A program made the position numbers and the translations under genes. From NCBI GenBank assembly GCA_031272145.1, contig JAISUL010000038.1:1-41260 (forward strand): a DNA stretch of 41,260 nucleotides. Direction: 5' to 3'. Numbering within the stretch: position 1 is the first letter of the stretch; every line of letters begins with the position of its first letter. The notes beneath the pieces were generated by a model, which saw only the letters and a program-made list of their open reading frames with translations, made no database searches and was not told the DNA's origin. Shown here in pieces: positions 3,020 through 35,819 of this stretch. Source of the stretch: Synergistaceae bacterium. GTDB lineage: Bacteria > Synergistota > Synergistia > Synergistales > Aminobacteriaceae.

Positions 3020-3368
3020 TCAGCTGAATGACGGCCATAGGGGCGCCGTCGCCCAAGCGTTCACCCAGCTTGACTATGCGCGTGTAGCCGCCCTTGTCAA
3101 ACGAGGCGTAGCGCGGAGCTAGCTCGTCAAACAGCTTGACTATGGCGGCCTTGTGCGGCATGCGGGCGCGCACCAGCCGGCGGTCTTGAACCGTGCCGCC
3201 TCTAGCCCGCGTTATCAGCTTCTCGGCCACGCGCCGAAGCTCTTTGGCGCGAGTGACGGTCGTCTTCACATGGCCGTGCAGAAAAAGGCACGCCGCCATG
3301 TTGGACAACATCATCACGCGATGGCTCCCGAAGCGGCCAAGCGTTCTGTGGTCCATGCGGTGTCTCAT
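3009..3368 (-). CDS. rplQ: 50S ribosomal protein L17
   Basis: The 119 residues match bacterial L17: a start near MRHRMDHRTLGR, the SHRVMMLSNMAACLF helix, TTVTRAKELRRVAEKLITRAR, and the final GDGAPMAVIQLIE strand. L17 sits near the exit of the large-subunit peptide tunnel. The ATG overlaps the rpoA stop by four bases (ATGA), so the last ribosomal gene of the alpha operon is translationally coupled to the giant alpha subunit. The normal length and sequence here argue that the surrounding reading frames are sound and that the long rpoA frame is not a sequencing artefact. Confidence 0.97.
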   Translation of the reverse strand: MRHRMDHRTLGRFGSHRVMMLSNMAACLFLHGHVKTTVTRAKELRRVAEKLITRARGGTVQDRRLVRARMPHKAAIVKLFDELAPRYASFDKGGYTRIVKLGERLGDGAPMAVIQLIER

Positions 3369-6300
3369 GCGATTTCCATCTCCTTAGGTGGTTCGTTGGC
3401 GGCCTCTGCCGACTTGGTTCTCCTGCGTCTGGGCTTCTGCACGTGTTCAGGCCGCGTGCGGGCACGTGCCATATACTCTTCGAGACCGTTATCCAAAAAG
3501 TCGCGTAGTTCCTCACGGGATTTTGCGCCAAGGCCATGCAGCCCGTCAAGCCCGGTAGTCCACTGCTCGATGATGTCATCGAGAAAATGAAGTCCGGCGC
3601 GGATGAGGGCGTTCCGCGTGCGGCGTGAAAGCGGCAAATCCTCCGTGGGGACACGAGGTGGCAAAGGCCCCGTATTCTGCCAGCCGCCCATGGCTTTCTC
3701 TATGTCTCCGAAGCAGCGGCTAACTATCTCCGCCGCCTCGCACATGGCCGACTCCGGCGTGGCCACGCCGTTGGTCCGCACGTCCATAACCAGCTTCTCG
3801 AAGTCCGTCATCTGTCCGACGCGCGCGGCCTCGACTTCGTAGCTGAACCGCAGAACCGGCGAGAAAACGGCGTCCGTCATCAGCGCACCAGCCGGAATGT
3901 GGTCCGGCCTGGGGCGTTCCGCCGTGATGTAGCCGAAGCCATGCTCCACAAAAAGGTCAAGGGCTATGTCCGCTCCGTCCTCCAGAGTGCAGAGCACCGC
4001 GTCGGGGTCAATGAACTCGATCGACGTGTCGCCGCTCAGGTCTATATCGGAAGCTCTGACGACCTTAGGCCCCGTCGCGGCGAGGCGCAGCTTCCGCATC
4101 CCCTCATCACTGACGGAGCGAATCGGCAGACGCTTCAGGTTCATCAGAAGCTCCATGACGTTCTCCTTGACGCCGCTAATGATGCCGAACGGAGAAAGAA
4201 CGTCGGGACTCGGCGAAGGCAGTGGCCTGCCCAAAGCCAGCCTCGGGTTCTTGCGCCTCAGGGCGTTCTCTATGGCGTTCACGCAGTCCGCGCCGAAGAC
4301 CGGCTCGTCACGGAGGTTCAGGCATCTCTCGCGCAGGGCTCTCTTGATTAGCTCAATGGCGTTCGCCGTAAAAGCCGGCTCGCCGCAAAGGTTAAGCCCT
4401 CTGGCGCGCAGCGCCGCGACCAGCCGATCGACGTCGGGTGCGTCGAAAACAGCCCTGGATGGCACCGAACCGAGCTCCAAGCCCATTTTTTTCAGTGACT
4501 CCTCGATGACGTTGACGGCTGCGTCCTTGATGCCCTTGATCTTCAGGAGTTCATCCCGCGTCTTGGCCGCGAGCCTGCCCAGCGTCAGGAGGCCGCTCTT
4601 CTTGAGCGCGTCCCTCTTGTCGCTCGGCAGCTCCTTTATCTCGTCCACCGAGGTTCCTACGACGTTCGATTTGCCGCCAAGCTCGAGGCCCTTCTCCCTT
4701 AGAGCGGCCTCAATTCTGTCAACGGCTGACGAGTCGAAAGCGGGCTTGCCGGTCATGGCGCTGCTGAAGGCCTTCAAGGCGTCGTCCACAGCCTTCTCGT
4801 AGTTACCGCCCACGCCTGCGAGCTTGCGCCCCGTCCGTCTGGCATCCGCTAGGTCGGCGACCGTGTTGACTCCGCCGTTAGCGCGTATCTTGTTCAAAAG
4901 CTGCGTCGGGAGGCTCAGCGCCTCGATGGGCGAGTTCAGGCCAGTTGACTCCTCGCGGAGCTTCAAGCCCTTTCTCGCCAGGGCGTTCTTGATCTTCTCG
5001 ATCGCCAAGCCGCTGATCCTCTTCGGAACGCGAATCTCCTTCTCCGTGCTAGCGACCAGGCCGGCAGCGCTTGTGATCCCCCGGTCCTCGCGGAGCGTGT
5101 TCAGAATCAACGTCTTCATGTTGGCCGGCGTGATGTCGAGCTCGTTCAGCGGGAAGTCGTCGACGGCCTCGCTATCCTGCTCGTCGGGAAGCCTAATGCT
5201 CAGAAGGTCATCCCTCGTCCTCGCTATGAGCTCGCTCACCATGCGAACCCCAGCGTAGCGCAGGGCGTCTACGACTGCGTCCTTATCCCCTGCTATGCTT
5301 AGCATGTCGACTGGGAAGTCCGTTTCTGGCGTAATGACCTCGTATGGCGCACTGAGTGCCAGGAGGTCGTCCCTGGTTTTTGCGACAAGCGAGGCTGCCG
5401 TGGCGACGTCAGACTCACGCAGAATGCGGATGGCGTTCCCGTCGGGCATGGCGGCGGCGAGCTCCTCTATCGGAAAGTCGGAATCGACGTCCACTTTCTT
5501 GATCCGCACATCACGAAGCTCTTCGGCCCTCTTTTTGACGAGCCTGTCCACCGTATCCAGCCCCTCGGCGCGGAGCGCTGCAAGTATGGCGGCCTTCCCA
5601 CCGTTTTTGTCCTCGCCGTCAGAGTCTGGGATGTTGAGCACGTCAATGCTGATGCCTTGCCCGACGTGCTGGTTCTCGACCTTCATTGCCAGAAGGTCGT
5701 CTCTGCTCTTGGCCACGAGCTCTCCGCCCCTGTGTATCTTGACGTAGCTGAGCGCCGCCGCGACCTGCTTGTTTAGATAGGAAGGCTCTATATCCAGATC
5801 GTCCACCGAAAAGTCCTCGGGCGGCCTGCTGAGATCCAGTCCTCTTTCGTGAAGCGCCGCCTCGATTCGGCCAACGGACTCCGCGTCGAATATCGGGGCG
5901 TTATCCCCGCCGAGCAGGGCGGAGAGAGCGTCGTCTATCTTTTTCTGCGACGACTCGGCGGCGCCCTTGAGCTTTACTCCGGCCCTCTGGGCGTTGACGA
6001 GGTCGCCTATGGTGCCTACGCCGTTGTTTTTGATGACGTTCATAAGCTGCGTATTGACTCCCAACTCACCCAAGACGTCCACAGGCGCGCTCATGTCGGC
6101 CGACTCGGTGTTGCGGAGCTTAACCGACAGGAGCTCGTCCTTTGTCTTGGCGATCAGGTCGTCCATAACCATGACTATGCCAGCGGCGTGGAGCGACCGC
6201 ACGACCTCGTCCGGAAGGCCGAGCTCGCTCACGGGGAAGTCCACCGGGCGTACGGCGGTCACTGCCGCGCCGCGAAGCGAGGACAGCATAACCCTCTTCA

Positions 6301-7402
6301 TGGCGTTGCCGAGCGTCATGCCATAGCCGCGTTCGAGCGGCTCCAAGGTAACGCGCCCGACCGTCGGAGTGCTCTCTGCTATCTTCAGCCTAGGGTGGTT
6401 CGGCAGCGGGTCGGGAGGCAGCGGAGGCAGGTTCTCTCCCAACTTGAGGCCGAACTTCTCGTCCAGCTTTTTCTCTATCTCCAGGACTGAGACCCTGCCG
6501 AGGCCCTTGAGCCTGAGCAGCTCCTCCCGCGTGGTCTTTACCAGGTCTCCGATGGTTGTTATGCCCTCGCGCTGAAGGCAGTTTTCGCTTCGGATGGAAA
6601 GCCCCAGAGGATGAACCATCATGCGCAGCACGTCCGGGTCTAGGGGCTTTGCTGCCCCTGTTCCGGGGTTAGTCTCCACGTTGACCCATTTTAGGTCGTC
6701 CGCCATGTTGTCGAAGTACATGCGAACGGTATGGGCGGCCTCGCGCACGGCGTCCTTGGGTGTCATGGCTCGGTTCGTCCACAGATCGATGACCAGCCTC
6801 TCCTCAGCGCTGTTCTCGTTCTCGACTGCGTAGTTGACGCGCTGAACCGGGGTGAACAGCGCGTCCGCTAGGAGCGCATCCACCGGCAGAATCTGGACAC
6901 CGTTCGGCGTCGTCGGCCTCGGGCGCTCGCACGAGAGGTATCCGGTGCCGCTGTCGATGTAGATGTCCATCTCAAGGCTGTGCCCCTCTTCGAGCGTGCA
7001 TATGGGCGCGTCAGGGTTGACGAACTCGACGTCGGGGCCGTGAAGTATGTCCCCAGCCGTGACGAGCTTCGGCCCCCTGGTCTCCAGGCGCAGCGGCGCG
7101 CGCGAGCGGAAGTCCAGCTCAGAGATGCTGTCCAAGCGGAGCGGCACGCGCTTAAGGTTCATCAAAATCTCTATGACGTCCTCACGAACCCCCGGCACGG
7201 TGCTGAACTCGTGTAGCACACCGTCTATTCGGACAGCCGCGATGGCCGCGCCGTGTATGGACGAAAGCAGAACGCGCCGCAGAGCGTTGCCGACGGTCAG
7301 CCCGTATCCTTTGCCGAGGGGTTCGACGATCAGACGTCCATGAAGAGAGGGAGAGCCGTCCGGCTCCTTCGCTGGATTGCTCTCTTCCAACTTGATCTCC
7401 AA
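3365..7402 (-). CDS. rpoA: Tandem-fused RNA polymerase alpha subunit with an inserted array of alpha-CTD-like modules
   Basis: One uninterrupted 1345-residue frame replaces the usual ~330-residue alpha. Residues 1-235 are an alpha-NTD (GYGLTVGNALRRVLLSS dimerisation helix, then GVREDVIEILMNLKRVP) and 256-323 a CTD. This CTD keeps the DNA-contact set (E. coli numbering R265, N268, G296, S299, E302 = R271, N274, G302, S305, E308; K291 is R297). Residues 338-385 restart an NTD (GYGMTLGNAMKRVMLSS). It is then split by ~680 residues of repeats and resumes at 1066-1235 (GVKENVMELLMNLKRLP). A last CTD (1247-1308) and a basic tail follow. Matching segments of the two NTDs share 23 of 37 and 13 of 19 residues, so this is an old, diverged duplication. 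TTG at 7402 is the only start: an in-frame TGA lies 9 nt upstream and no Met follows until inside the fold. It lies 17 nt after rpsK; rpsD is missing between them. Confidence 0.95.
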   Translation of the reverse strand: MEIKLEESNPAKEPDGSPSLHGRLIVEPLGKGYGLTVGNALRRVLLSSIHGAAIAAVRIDGVLHEFSTVPGVREDVIEILMNLKRVPLRLDSISELDFRSRAPLRLETRGPKLVTAGDILHGPDVEFVNPDAPICTLEEGHSLEMDIYIDSGTGYLSCERPRPTTPNGVQILPVDALLADALFTPVQRVNYAVENENSAEERLVIDLWTNRAMTPKDAVREAAHTVRMYFDNMADDLKWVNVETNPGTGAAKPLDPDVLRMMVHPLGLSIRSENCLQREGITTIGDLVKTTREELLRLKGLGRVSVLEIEKKLDEKFGLKLGENLPPLPPDPLPNHPRLKIAESTPTVGRVTLEPLERGYGMTLGNAMKRVMLSSLRGAAVTAVRPVDFPVSELGLPDEVVRSLHAAGIVMVMDDLIAKTKDELLSVKLRNTESADMSAPVDVLGELGVNTQLMNVIKNNGVGTIGDLVNAQRAGVKLKGAAESSQKKIDDALSALLGGDNAPIFDAESVGRIEAALHERGLDLSRPPEDFSVDDLDIEPSYLNKQVAAALSYVKIHRGGELVAKSRDDLLAMKVENQHVGQGISIDVLNIPDSDGEDKNGGKAAILAALRAEGLDTVDRLVKKRAEELRDVRIKKVDVDSDFPIEELAAAMPDGNAIRILRESDVATAASLVAKTRDDLLALSAPYEVITPETDFPVDMLSIAGDKDAVVDALRYAGVRMVSELIARTRDDLLSIRLPDEQDSEAVDDFPLNELDITPANMKTLILNTLREDRGITSAAGLVASTEKEIRVPKRISGLAIEKIKNALARKGLKLREESTGLNSPIEALSLPTQLLNKIRANGGVNTVADLADARRTGRKLAGVGGNYEKAVDDALKAFSSAMTGKPAFDSSAVDRIEAALREKGLELGGKSNVVGTSVDEIKELPSDKRDALKKSGLLTLGRLAAKTRDELLKIKGIKDAAVNVIEESLKKMGLELGSVPSRAVFDAPDVDRLVAALRARGLNLCGEPAFTANAIELIKRALRERCLNLRDEPVFGADCVNAIENALRRKNPRLALGRPLPSPSPDVLSPFGIISGVKENVMELLMNLKRLPIRSVSDEGMRKLRLAATGPKVVRASDIDLSGDTSIEFIDPDAVLCTLEDGADIALDLFVEHGFGYITAERPRPDHIPAGALMTDAVFSPVLRFSYEVEAARVGQMTDFEKLVMDVRTNGVATPESAMCEAAEIVSRCFGDIEKAMGGWQNTGPLPPRVPTEDLPLSRRTRNALIRAGLHFLDDIIEQWTTGLDGLHGLGAKSREELRDFLDNGLEEYMARARTRPEHVQKPRRRRTKSAEAANEPPKEMEIA
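3479..4207 (-). other. rpoA domain block: remainder of the second alpha subunit (copy B)
   Basis: Residues 1066-1235 are the rest of the second NTD (FIDPDAVLCTLEDG matches FVNPDAPICTLEEG of copy A; YITAERPRP matches YLSCERPRP). Residues 1247-1308 are the second CTD, with LSRRTRNAL retaining R265 and N268 equivalents (R1261, N1264) and LGAKSREEL retaining G296, S299 and E302 equivalents. K291 is replaced by Gly. The first 48 residues of copy B lie at 6248-6391, on the other side of the insert. Confidence 0.88.
4208..6247 (-). repeat. rpoA insert: nine alpha-CTD-like helix-hairpin-helix modules plus repeated helical tails
   Basis: Residues 386-1065 interrupt the second NTD. Modules begin near 388, 439, 530, 585, 642, 696, 750, 824 and 917. 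Each opens with a [FS]P[IV][DE]xL-like strand and carries a [TS]-x-x-x-L-[IV]-x-x-[TS]-[RK]-[DE]-[DE]-L-L core, for example DLIAKTKDELLSV, ELVAKSRDDLLAM, SLVAKTRDDLLAL, ELIARTRDDLLSI and RLAAKTRDELLKI. That is the consensus of alpha-CTD, but the R265 and N268 equivalents are lost. Blocks 439-525 and 824-908 are homologous to each other, including their RIEAALxExGLxL tails. Residues 983-1055 contain three 25-residue tandem copies of that tail helix. Identity to alpha-CTD is by eye; DNA binding is not implied. Confidence 0.85.
6434..7402 (-). other. rpoA domain block: first, complete alpha subunit (copy A)
   Basis: Residues 1-323 of the fused protein form a full alpha subunit: NTD, linker rich in Pro and Gly (about 243-256) and CTD ending in GLKLGE. 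A normal gene would stop here; instead the chain continues through a Pro-rich linker (ENLPPLPPDPLPNHP) into copy B. Both determinants expected for function, the dimerisation helix and the helix-hairpin-helix of the CTD, look intact. Confidence 0.9.
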
Positions 7403-32439: not shown

Positions 32440-34149
32440 TTGAACAATCTAATAAACGCCGCCCGCGACGTCCTCAGCATCGCCGAGGCAGCCGAATACG
32501 CTAGCCGTCTTCTCGGAAAAACGGTAACACCGTCCAACATCTCCTACCTCATTCAGTACGGGCGCGTCGCGCGCGTCGACATAGACGGAGTAGGCGGAGT
32601 GTCTAGACGCGAGCTTGAGGAGTATTACAGCTCTTACGGCCGCGCCTACAAACAGAAGTTCGGCATGGGGGAGACTGCTTCCTCGGAGGCGATTGACCCT
32701 TCAGAGACGACCGTCCCCAATTCCGTCAACTGGACGCTGTCCTTCGCTCAGTACAAGGAGGCGGAGACCACCAAGCACGTACACCGGCTGCACCCGTACA
32801 AGGGGAAGTTCATCCCACAGCTTGTGGAGTACTTCATCGACGGGCATACGGACGAGTTCAAGCGGGACGTCTACTTCCACCCGGGGGACGTGATTCTCGA
32901 CCCATTCGCGGGCAGCGGCACGACCCTAGTCCAGGCCTGCGAGTGCGGCATGCACGCGGTCGGAGTCGACGTCTCGGCCTTCAACGCGATGATAGCCAAC
33001 TGCAAGGTCGCGCGGTGCGACCTCATCGACCTCCAGACCGAGGCGATGCGAGTATCGGACGTGCTGAAGGAGAGCGTCGCTCGTTCTCGCATCCCTGAGT
33101 TCGAGGCGCGCCTGACGGACGCACTGGCCAGTTATAACGAGCAGTATTTCCCCTCCCCCGAGTATCGGTACAGGCTGCGCCGCGGCGAGATCGACGAGGA
33201 CGAGTACGGGCCAGCGCAGGCGGAGGCGTTCCTGCCCGTGTACCGCGCGCTGGTCGCCGAGTACGGGGTAGCGCTCCTCCAAGGGGTCTCAGAGGAGTCA
33301 GTCGAGGGAAGCAAGCCCCCCGACCCCAACCCCCAAGTCGATGACGGCTCGTTCTTAGGGAAATGGTACCTGCCCAGCGTGCGACGAGAGATAGACGTTA
33401 TCTTCGGCGAGATCGAGAAAGTCCGGCCTCCGGAGACGAAGCGGGCGCTCTCCGTTGCGCTCAGCCGCGCGATGAGGAGCTGCCGCGCCACGACTCACTC
33501 CGACCTAGCAACCCTGCTAGAGCCGGTCTCGGAGCCATACTACTGCACGAAGCACGGCAAGGTCTGCCGCCCGCTGTTCAGCATGGCCAGGTGGTGGGAC
33601 AGGTACGCAAAGGACACGGTCGCGCGCCTGGCCGAGTTCGAGGGGCTCCGGCGGCTCCGCGGGGCCGCGACGCACCAGCTCTGCCTAGTCGGCGACAGCA
33701 GAACTATAGACCTGCCCTCCGCCCTAGAGTGCGCCTCCTCTCCGGCGCTCGCCGCGCTCGCCGCGAACCGCGGGATAGCCGGAATCTTCTCCTCCCCGCC
33801 CTACGTGGGGATGATCGACTACCACGAGCAGCACGCCTACGCGTACGAGCTCTTCGGCTTCGAGCGCAACGACTCGGCCGAGATAGGCCCCATGTTCCGA
33901 GGCAAGACCAAGGATGCCCAGGAGGCCTACGTGGAGGGCGTAGCGCAGGTGCTCCTGAACTGCAAGAAAAGCTTGGCCAACGGGTATAACGTTTTCCTCG
34001 TGGCGAACGACAGACGTAACCTCTACCCAGCGATAGCCGCCAAGGCCGGTATGAGGATAGTGAACCGCTTCCACCGCCCGGTGCTGAACCGCTCCGAGAA
34101 GGACAGGACGGCGTACTCGGAGACGATATTCCATATGAAGGAGGCTTAG
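32440..34149 (+). CDS. DNA methyltransferase (N4-cytosine/N6-adenine class) of a type II restriction-modification pair
   Basis: The 569-residue protein starts at TTG after AAGGAGG. Residues 10-65 look like an excisionase/MerR-type winged helix (LSIAEAAEYASRLLGKTVTP, SRRELEEYY). Methyltransferase motif I is DPFAGSGTT (154-162) followed by AVGVDVSAFN, and motif IV is SSPPYVGMIDYHE (451-463). The ~290 residues between them probably include the target-recognition region, giving an alpha-like motif order. SPPY suggests exocyclic amino methylation (m4C more often than m6A). It lies 35 nt before a restriction endonuclease gene. Its last 28 codons are duplicated after that gene (34954-35035). Confidence 0.88.
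   Translation: MNNLINAARDVLSIAEAAEYASRLLGKTVTPSNISYLIQYGRVARVDIDGVGGVSRRELEEYYSSYGRAYKQKFGMGETASSEAIDPSETTVPNSVNWTLSFAQYKEAETTKHVHRLHPYKGKFIPQLVEYFIDGHTDEFKRDVYFHPGDVILDPFAGSGTTLVQACECGMHAVGVDVSAFNAMIANCKVARCDLIDLQTEAMRVSDVLKESVARSRIPEFEARLTDALASYNEQYFPSPEYRYRLRRGEIDEDEYGPAQAEAFLPVYRALVAEYGVALLQGVSEESVEGSKPPDPNPQVDDGSFLGKWYLPSVRREIDVIFGEIEKVRPPETKRALSVALSRAMRSCRATTHSDLATLLEPVSEPYYCTKHGKVCRPLFSMARWWDRYAKDTVARLAEFEGLRRLRGAATHQLCLVGDSRTIDLPSALECASSPALAALAANRGIAGIFSSPPYVGMIDYHEQHAYAYELFGFERNDSAEIGPMFRGKTKDAQEAYVEGVAQVLLNCKKSLANGYNVFLVANDRRNLYPAIAAKAGMRIVNRFHRPVLNRSEKDRTAYSETIFHMKEA
34062..34143 (+). repeat. 82-bp direct repeat, copy 1 (end of methyltransferase gene)
   Basis: This segment encodes the last residues of the methyltransferase, starting NRFHRPVLNRSEKDRTAYSE. 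It recurs 892 bp downstream at 34954-35035 with about five mismatches. The differences are mostly silent or conservative (K to R, T to A) in the methyltransferase frame. Confidence 0.95.
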
Positions 34150-34184: not shown

Positions 34185-34979
34185 ATGCGGCAGAATTTGC
34201 GGAGCGAAGTTGAGAACATCATCAGAGTGTGCCTTAGGAAGAAGCTCCTGGTCTATACGCCGGAGAGTACAAACATGCCGTTTCACTATAGGCTGCTCGG
34301 CCGCGACAGGATGGCGCTGTTTTCGTTTATACATTCATTCAGTACGTCTTTCGGGACGTCGATCTTTGAACCAGTCGCGGTTGCGCTGGCGCGTGAGCGT
34401 TTCGTGCGTGCCGAAAAACAGTACGCTCTCGGAAAGGAGATATACGCCGCCTGCCAGAGAGCTATTCAAGACATCATAACCAATCTGTCGATAGCGCCTC
34501 GTCCCGATAAAACGCGCGAGCTGCGCATATTGCGAGAGCACCTGAACGGAGATTTCAGAGAGCTTAAAACGGTCAGGGCAGACCTGTTTCTTGAGGATAA
34601 GAACGGCGTTCGATACTTGTTCGACATCAAATCGCCCAAACCAAACAGCAACGAGTTCAAACGCTTCAAGCAGACGTTGCTGGAGTGGGCAGGCATCGAA
34701 ATGACCGCTCGGCCTGACGTTACCGTAAACACGTTCATCGCCATTCCATATAACCCCTACGAGCCAGAGCCCTATAAGCGCTGGACTATGGCTGGCATGA
34801 TCGACGTCGGTGCTGAGTTGAAGGTCGCCGCTGAGTTCTGGGACTTTATCGGTGGCGATGGTGCCTACGAAGAGCTTCTCGATTGTTTCGAGCGAGTGGG
34901 TGTTCAAATGCGCGATGAAATAGACGAGCGCTTCAAGGAGTTCGTCAAGATGGGAACCGCTTCCACCGTCCGGTGCTGA
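34185..34979 (+). CDS. TdeIII-like type II restriction endonuclease
   Basis: The 264-residue protein has MPFHYRLLGRDRMALFSFIH, SFGTSIFEPVA, a PD-(D/E)XK-like core with D133 (VRADLFLED) and D147-x-K149 (YLFDIKSPKP), and IPYNPYEPEPYKRWT. I recall these features from the TdeIII restriction endonuclease family, whose prototype is reported to cut GGNCC; the specificity here is not read from the sequence. It has a strong ribosome-binding site (AAGGAGG). Base composition is visibly less G+C-rich than its neighbours, suggesting transfer. The natural C terminus ends at about residue 256: the final GTASTVRC is translated out of frame from the duplicated methyltransferase end, so the gene was joined there by recombination. 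Confidence 0.78.
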   Translation: MRQNLRSEVENIIRVCLRKKLLVYTPESTNMPFHYRLLGRDRMALFSFIHSFSTSFGTSIFEPVAVALARERFVRAEKQYALGKEIYAACQRAIQDIITNLSIAPRPDKTRELRILREHLNGDFRELKTVRADLFLEDKNGVRYLFDIKSPKPNSNEFKRFKQTLLEWAGIEMTARPDVTVNTFIAIPYNPYEPEPYKRWTMAGMIDVGAELKVAAEFWDFIGGDGAYEELLDCFERVGVQMRDEIDERFKEFVKMGTASTVRC

Positions 34980-35047: not shown

Positions 35048-35372
35048 GGCCTACCCCCCCCCACTCTCAGGTGTTGCAGTGTTGCTTACAGCCCATGAAC
35101 CAGCACCACCGTTGGGCTGGCGGCTGCAACAGGGGGTATGATCTCTGACGTTGCAGCTGTTGCAGAACTCCCCCCTCCATGAGGCCGCAGACCTCGGATG
35201 CCGCTTATTTCCTTATTTCACACTAAAAAGCTGCTGCAGTATGGCCCTCGCCAGATCCAGCTGCAACATCTGCATCACCAGAGATCACCCCCCTTGTTGC
35301 AGCCTCAATCCCAGTGACCGTGTGGGTTTGAGGCTTTAAGCAACACTGCAACACCGGAGAGGGGGGTAGGCC
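35048..35372. repeat. 325-bp nested palindromic element (MITE-like or structured RNA)
   Basis: Outer arms 35048-35088 and 35337-35372 are inverted copies (GGCCTACCCCC and GGTGTTGCAGTGTTGCTTA in both, with a few differences between). Inner arms 35122-35147 and 35279-35304 (GGCTGCAACA and GATCTCTG in both) and a third pair, near 35150-35165 and 35261-35276, are nested inside. Between the outer and inner arms sit two side hairpins: CAGCCCA/TGGGCTG at 35089-35119 and GCCTCAA/TTGAGGC at 35302-35334. The whole folds as a branched cruciform with an unpaired centre of about 80 nt. GTTGCAG recurs in several arms. There is no transposase and no supported gene inside. Confidence 0.8.
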
Positions 35373-35437
35373 CCATGAGCCGGGGTTGCGAAAAGAGCGT
35401 TCAGACATTTTTGCACGCATTTGGGTCGGCTGCCCTC
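35373..35437. other. Intergenic stretch with no recognised feature
   Basis: Together with the palindrome, leader and promoters this belongs to the 35041-35627 gene-free zone. No supported reading frame, tRNA or terminator was seen between the palindrome and the first of the two promoters. Confidence 0.5.
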
Positions 35438-35466
35438 TTGACTTCCCGGGCTGGCTGTGCTATGCT
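35438..35466 (+). promoter_or_regulatory. Strong sigma-70 promoter P1 (extended -10)
   Basis: TTGACT (35438-35443), 17 bp, TATGCT (35461-35466), preceded by TG one base upstream. The 18 bases GGCTGTGCTATGCTCTTT and the 8 bases CTTGACTT are identical in P2 at 35785-35813; only eight spacer bases differ. The transcript would start near 35473 and carry a ~155-nt leader before the small gene at 35628. Confidence 0.75.
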
Positions 35467-35472
35467 CTTTCA

Positions 35473-35627: not shown

Positions 35628-35756
35628 ATGCAGCCGATCGATGAACGCGCCGATTATCCTATGACCATAGAAGACCTCTTCCGAAGCTATGACGGGCAGC
35701 CTTTTGAAGCCGAACTGGTTGACCTCGGCCCGGCGGTGGGGGAGGAGAAATGGTGA
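35628..35756 (+). CDS. 42-residue peptide resembling the C-terminal tail of MazE/PemI-type antitoxins
   Basis: The peptide MTIEDLFRSYDGQPFEAELV plus DLGPAVGEEKW (residues 12-42) resembles the toxin-binding tail of AbrB/MazE/PemI antitoxins, which often end in xxWGxxVGxExW. The usual N-terminal swapped-hairpin DNA-binding domain is absent. The ATG follows a strong GGAGGTGAG and a promoter, so it may be expressed. The toxin normally overlapping the antitoxin stop is missing: ATGGTGAAAGTG at the junction could be its old start, but that frame stops after 12 codons. It is either a remnant of a mazEF-like pair or a stand-alone antitoxin peptide. Confidence 0.5.
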   Translation: MQPIDERADYPMTIEDLFRSYDGQPFEAELVDLGPAVGEEKW

Positions 35757-35784
35757 AAGTGTTGACTGCCCAGGCAGATAGGGC

Positions 35785-35813
35785 TTGACTTTCTATGAGG
35801 GCTGTGCTATGCT
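35785..35813 (+). promoter_or_regulatory. Strong sigma-70 promoter P2 (near-copy of P1)
   Basis: TTGACT (35785-35790), 17 bp, TATGCT (35808-35813) with the same TG-extended -10 and flanks as P1. It lies 150 bp before the 3' end of the convergent unknown gene and directly in front of a hairpin-rich ~85-nt segment ending in a terminator. Confidence 0.75.
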
Positions 35814-35819
35814 CTTTTT

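Follow-up and report, generated by a model that had tools for sequence, protein, structure and literature searches.

The origin oriR of P1 combines 19-bp direct iterons, DnaA sites and its own repA gene with a spacer that is a required G+C-rich stretch, to which, to our knowledge, no role has been assigned. In lambdoid phages, such as Sf6, HK75, HK633 and mEpX2, the origin also contains direct iterons and lies within the coding sequence of the O gene. The satellite phage P4 carries at crr/ori 8-bp type 1 repeats in both orientations, with an A+T-rich spacer of 35 nt between opposed repeats, and encodes its own alpha primase. In phage-inducible chromosomal islands (PICIs) of the EcCICFT073 type, the origin function of which has been demonstrated, two iteron sets lie on either side of an A+T-rich region (PMC6092414). 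REPINs and BIMEs are inverted doublets that form hairpins in intergenic DNA (PMC3116915).

The element analyzed here occupies positions 35048–35372 of the window, that is, the whole 41,260-nt stretch of Synergistaceae bacterium DNA under analysis. The original prediction had described a palindrome with three concentric arm pairs, two side hairpins, recurring GTTGCAG motifs and no protein gene. All three arm pairs were recovered with the right coordinates (Table 1), the side hairpins correspond to a GC box that occurs twice in inverted orientation, TGTTGC-type motifs occur eight times and in both orientations, and an ORF check agreed that no protein gene lies inside. The RNA fold of the 325-nt element reached −178 to −177 kcal/mol, compared with −116 ± 6 for its shuffles (z −10.4, 0/100) and −121 ± 14 for 250 other stretches of the window, the lowest of which was −158. 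The A+T-richest stretch of the element (65% A+T in 40 nt) sits in the central loop.

Table 1. Coordinates of the palindrome, its parts and the preceding genes in the window.
Feature	Position	Strand	Basis or remark
Whole element, putative double inverted origin-type module	35048..35372	.	arm analysis, fold, alignment
Outer arms	35048-35059 / 35361-35372		12 bp, 100%
Middle arms	35059-35093 / 35332-35366		35 bp, 91%
Inner arms	35098-35165 / 35261-35328		68 bp, 75%
Additional inner arm pair	35147-35159 / 35258-35270
Outer left iteron-like repeat pair TGTTGCAG TGTTGCTT	35072..35087	+	repeat scan
Left GC box AGCCCAACGGTGGTGCTGGT, degenerate (left side hairpin)	35099..35118	-	four-arm alignment, unit line-up
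Left inner-facing repeat CTGCAACA	35124..35131	-	repeat scan
Loop-proximal left repeat TGTTGCAG	35158..35165	+	repeat scan
Central loop, 92 nt	35166..35257	.	sequence unrelated to C28 loop
Loop-proximal right repeat CTGCAACA	35261..35268	-	repeat scan
Right repeat TGTTGCAG, 5 nt before right box	35295..35302	+	unit line-up, repeat scan
Right GC box ATCCCAGTGACCGTGTGGGTTTGAGG (right side hairpin)	35308..35333	+	outside-origin matrix score 12.8, window best
Outer right repeat pair AAGCAACA CTGCAACA	35338..35353	-	unit line-up, repeat scan
ORF with N6/N4 DNA methylase domain	32440..34149	+	PF01555
TdeIII-type restriction endonuclease gene	34185..34979	+	PF09520, E 3e-82, full-length match

The genome assembly (about 2.05 Mb in 107 contigs) was searched for further copies, which are labelled here by contig, the 35048–35372 copy being C6. 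DNA comparison revealed another copy, C28:13292-13600, which is flanked by rlmH and rsmI and has arms 81–85% identical to those of C6. A profile of the four C6 and C28 arms, followed by a pattern search of the genome, then yielded sites at C5, C58, C33, C78, C52 and C99 and at the contig-end pairs C38/C43, C76/C65 and C77/C107. The search for more copies suggested by the original prediction was thus positive, with at least nine sites besides 35048–35372, and the family in this single genome amounts to about ten chromosomal sites. Most elements directly follow the end of a gene, and the ORFs of rsmI (C28) and coaBC (C76) extend into the element. Most copies have housekeeping genes as neighbors (rlmH/rsmI, argG, coaBC, Mur ligase and AIR carboxylase), and one further copy adjoins an AAA_5-domain gene resembling McrB. 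The C6, C28, C52 and C78 elements lie between convergent genes, other copies between tandem genes. The arms of some copies are near-perfect (C5, 80 nt at 99%; C52, 33 bp at 100%), the outer ends differ from copy to copy, and a check for target-site duplications gave just short chance-type flanking matches, AAAGAGCG at C6 and CCATTA at C28. At L103:2510-2737 with L102:1-100, and at L098:130-345, units of differing repeat type seem nested, as if one element had inserted into another.

All sites share a unit in which a conserved GC box of about 20 nt, AGCCCAGTnrnnGCGCGG, lies between inverted repeats of 6–9 bp. Each half element reads repeat, 5–7 nt, box, 11–13 nt and inverted repeat, the repeats often being in tandem. 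Five repeat types occur in the family, with arms complementary within each unit: TGTTGC(AG) in C6 and C28, TGTCCCT or GTCAC in C33, C78, C99 and C52, and ATGGTCGCT, TATGGCAACC and CGTACATCA as types three to five. The outer left pair TGTTGCAG TGTTGCTT does not vary among the four arms of C6 and C28. The loops of other copies are 70–93% A+T, compared with at most 65% in 40 nt at C6, and several hold an inward sigma-70-like promoter, TTGAC(T/G)-n17-TATAAT. In five members (L133:2000-2262, L132:1990-2240 on the minus strand, L096, L097 and L098) the loop carries an A-tract and a strong sigma-70-like promoter just inside the right half, and the C5 and C58 loops have a common short reading frame, starting MSTSKKTYDPRTLVQSYKFGALDG in C58.

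The box pattern gave 17 matches in the source genome vs. 0 for the control, and its frequency across the order's 182 other genomes was that of chance; the matches in relatives G012, G001, G128, G045, G059, G035 and G024 were rejected as chance-like, being without palindromic flanks and in several cases clearly within coding sequence. BLAST of the whole element against phages, plasmids and the 182 relatives returned no match, as the arms evolve fast and the box alone is shared. A 17-mer arm scan of IMG/VR and 84,980 species gave single matches near the chance rate, with no second arm in any, and neither this IMG/VR scan nor the phage and plasmid searches found a phage, host- or helper-derived, that carries the TGTTGCAG repeat.

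The original prediction had noted compensated differences between the arms, and these hold across the family and not just within the 35048–35372 copy. With rows put in register by hand using artificial anchors, 81% of arm cells were paired vs. 47% when shuffled, and the covariation score was 0.872 vs. 0.238 (0/500 shuffles), slid registers giving 0.09–0.41. In a four-arm alignment, the boxes keep their left or right identity, and much of the remainder looks swapped between arms, a pattern that would be the product expected from recombination between inverted arms. Inverted binding sites suffice to explain compensated arms, for which no RNA is required; the arms appear to behave as inverted initiator-type repeats (iterons), that is, as putative binding sites. 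A structured RNA or a bidirectional terminator would also account for the very stable fold, the arm covariation and the convergent-gene position of four copies. However, the two strands fold about equally strongly, inverted protein-binding repeats predict covariation equally, other copies lie between tandem genes, and no Rfam match at gathering score was found in the window, so that we regard this explanation as extremely improbable.

The GC box was also found at replication origins outside the source genome. It lies within the annotated origin of Sf6, itself inside the initiator gene, and many lambdoid phages carry it in their O genes. P1 oriR has it, as AAGCCAGACGTGGCGCGGCCTGCAAC, within the 39-bp spacer that separates the iterons from the Dam-site and A+T part, and in the P1-like SJ46 it lies upstream of repA. 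Further, it occurs near RepB/RepE initiator genes and adjoins the primase gene in the CFT073 PICI and similar islands; rolling-circle rep genes have it about 200 nt upstream. Box AGCCCAGTAATGGCGCGGCTT is common to origins with unrelated initiators, namely O, RepA/RepB, rolling-circle Rep and several primase-helicases, the P1 spacer included. The annotated outside boxes are nearly all from Gammaproteobacteria replicons, probably far from the host. A literature search, covering sources outside subscription, found no description of the box as a shared element. As the box is conserved across origins, its role is directly testable.

Exact box scans of IMG/VR gave phage contigs with iteron-like repeats around the box, and a longer box pattern matched at least 120 contigs. 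From the IMG/VR matches listed and the earlier matches, 26 sequence contexts were assembled. An 8-mer recurred at least three times within 120 nt in 13 of the 24 testable contexts among the matches listed, vs. 3.3% of control sites, and the genes nearest the box in phage contexts, again among the matches listed, were often primases, helicases or O-like initiators; D5/DUF5906 primases, Prim-Pol, AAA_25 helicases and DnaD-like initiators were among the neighbors. On phage contigs L252, L255, L303 and L309, the box lies near terminase genes instead of replication genes. The reversed-box control matched 1 plasmid vs. 22 for the true box, and no phage replication gene. When position 9 of the box was set to G, the query matched mostly one Salmonella phage tail gene and was set aside as chance.

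An ERIC-like MITE had been the first reading of the family, and it was dropped after the IMG/VR scan had given these phage contigs. An ordinary palindromic transposable repeat of MITE or REPIN type, the origin-like box being coincidental, would fit the dispersed, intergenic and non-coding copies with their inverted arms, the nested copies and the position at gene 3′ ends, which is like that of REP/ERIC-type repeats. However, the box matches origins and its reversed control does not, terminal sequences differ between copies with no target duplication established, and the Y1 transposase (PF01797), RAYT in REPIN/BIME systems, is absent from the assembly although this search detects it in control genomes; this explanation is thus very unlikely. 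Of the original interpretation, the non-autonomous element fits these results, whereas the structured RNA is not the best reading of an element the conserved part of which is an origin box.

A weight matrix was built from 20 outside phage and plasmid origin boxes, none of them from the source genome. It ranked the right box first of all window positions on both strands, the next match scoring 10.1, and the left box was not among the top window matches. At nearly every other family locus the top match was also the box, the exception being C28, where the box came second in the 20-kb stretch. Among the features of an iteron-type origin, the repeated initiator-type sites and, in the right half, the box are present at 35048–35372. 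Scanning the phage contexts with the same matrix revealed a site in a phage, IMGVR_UViG_3300004448_000122 (L255:4934-5141), that resembles the family in its inverted box pair, one canonical and one degenerate, in the inverted repeats CTTGTACGCC/GGCGTACAAGG flanking each box, in its A+T-rich loop and in its nested palindrome fold. It differs from the family in its repeat sequence, in being a single site and in its location beside terminase genes.

In PICIs of the EcCICFT073 type, the box lies between iteron sets and adjoins the primase gene, but PICIs carry pri-rep, int and packaging genes, and the family elements carry none. In the lambdoid origins, the box lies between iterons and overlaps the Sf6 rep_origin; these origins and P1 oriR, unlike the family, have direct iterons and one box each. 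The spacing between opposed repeats in P4 is close to that in the family, but the P4 spacer is without a GC box. No PICI- or P4-type satellite genes (integrase, primase or packaging) occur in the non-coding 35048–35372 element, no initiator or primase gene lies in it or among the neighbor genes checked, and the P4-type primase (TIGR01613) had no match in the assembly.

These comparisons identify a family of dispersed elements with a common GC box and iteron-like arms, in which the box and the layout are homologous to those of replication origins. The homology of the element itself to origins is very likely. Because the box occurs at phage and plasmid origins, the elements are best read as double inverted iteron-type origin modules dispersed without an initiator gene. 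They are probably of the kind with which phages, plasmids and phage satellites replicate, would have their initiator supplied by a helper, and would be, now or formerly, helper-dependent origin-only parasites. From the sequence we infer initiator binding, firing, helper dependence and mobility as follows. Each half would consist of an iteron-like repeat, a GC box and one or more inverted repeats, with the halves facing each other across a loop that is A+T-rich in several members. An initiator or primase-helicase from a visiting phage, plasmid or satellite would bind the short repeats in trans and open the loop, and the GC box could then serve a common origin-firing step on each strand, for example primer start or helicase loading. 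The element would thereby have been copied into gene 3′ ends. That helper-dependent spread is the reason for the copies is plausible, though held with somewhat less than even confidence. Several results weigh against this reading as a whole: the searches gave no initiator or primase gene in or beside the element, no phage with the TGTTGCAG repeat and no established target-site duplication, and the annotated outside examples are nearly all gammaproteobacterial. A phage or plasmid with TGTTGCAG, ATGGTCGCT, TATGGCAACC or TGTCCCTG repeats beside a primase would name the helper.

Each copy might instead be the decayed, now inactive remnant of an origin that had integrated separately and came from a phage, satellite or plasmid. 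The origin homology of box and layout, the missing P4-type primase gene, the degenerate left box at 35048–35372 and the five repeat types, which suggest several source replicons, all fit such a history. However, the elements hold little beyond the origin, the layout recurs at all complete sites, arms as near-perfect as those of C5 and C52 are unexpected after old decay, and the elements directly follow gene ends and do not sit in prophage remains, so that separate decay is unlikely. For the 35048–35372 copy itself, the degenerate left box and the just moderately A+T-rich loop indicate that it may be dead.

A role in host protection, in which chromosomal decoy or suicide origins titrate or misfire an incoming phage initiator, would suit the several repeat specificities within one chromosome and the position of the 35048–35372 copy behind a restriction-modification pair and of another copy beside the McrB-like gene. 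However, most copies are beside housekeeping genes, and we give this role little credence. Taken more broadly, it is a tentative and somewhat improbable possibility that the family consists of origin-only parasites or decoys, that is, dispersed bare double origins of several initiator specificities that are fired only by an incoming replication protein. If so, bare double origins would either spread, which would make them the smallest known satellites, or abort infection, in a set built on a GC box common to otherwise unrelated phage and plasmid origins. Genome-wide, such a set would represent either a minimal replicon parasite of a new kind or a decoy defence.

The original prediction had placed the palindrome just after the stop codon of a methyltransferase remnant, which proved incorrect: the upstream gene encodes the TdeIII-type restriction endonuclease and stops 68 bp short of the palindrome, and the methyltransferase lies one gene earlier. 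On the other flank is an ORF without a family match, adjoining ComEC. Two 34-nt promoter-like repeats (TTGACT...TATGCT; 35437–35470 and 35784–35817), 82% alike, lie around a 42-aa ORF (35628–35756) with no match in Pfam or PHROGs, the C-terminus of which we take to resemble MazE-type antitoxins. The rest of the window is ordinary chromosome, with ribosomal protein and translation genes, a TRAP transporter and tRNA-Leu, then the restriction-modification pair. On the minus strand at 3365–7402, a single open frame of 1345 aa encodes an entire RNA polymerase alpha subunit and, after it, a second N-terminal domain of alpha, apparently split by several hundred residues of alpha C-terminal (helix-hairpin-helix)-like repeats; after the repeats come the rest of this domain and another C-terminal domain, so that the frame looks like a fused double rpoA.
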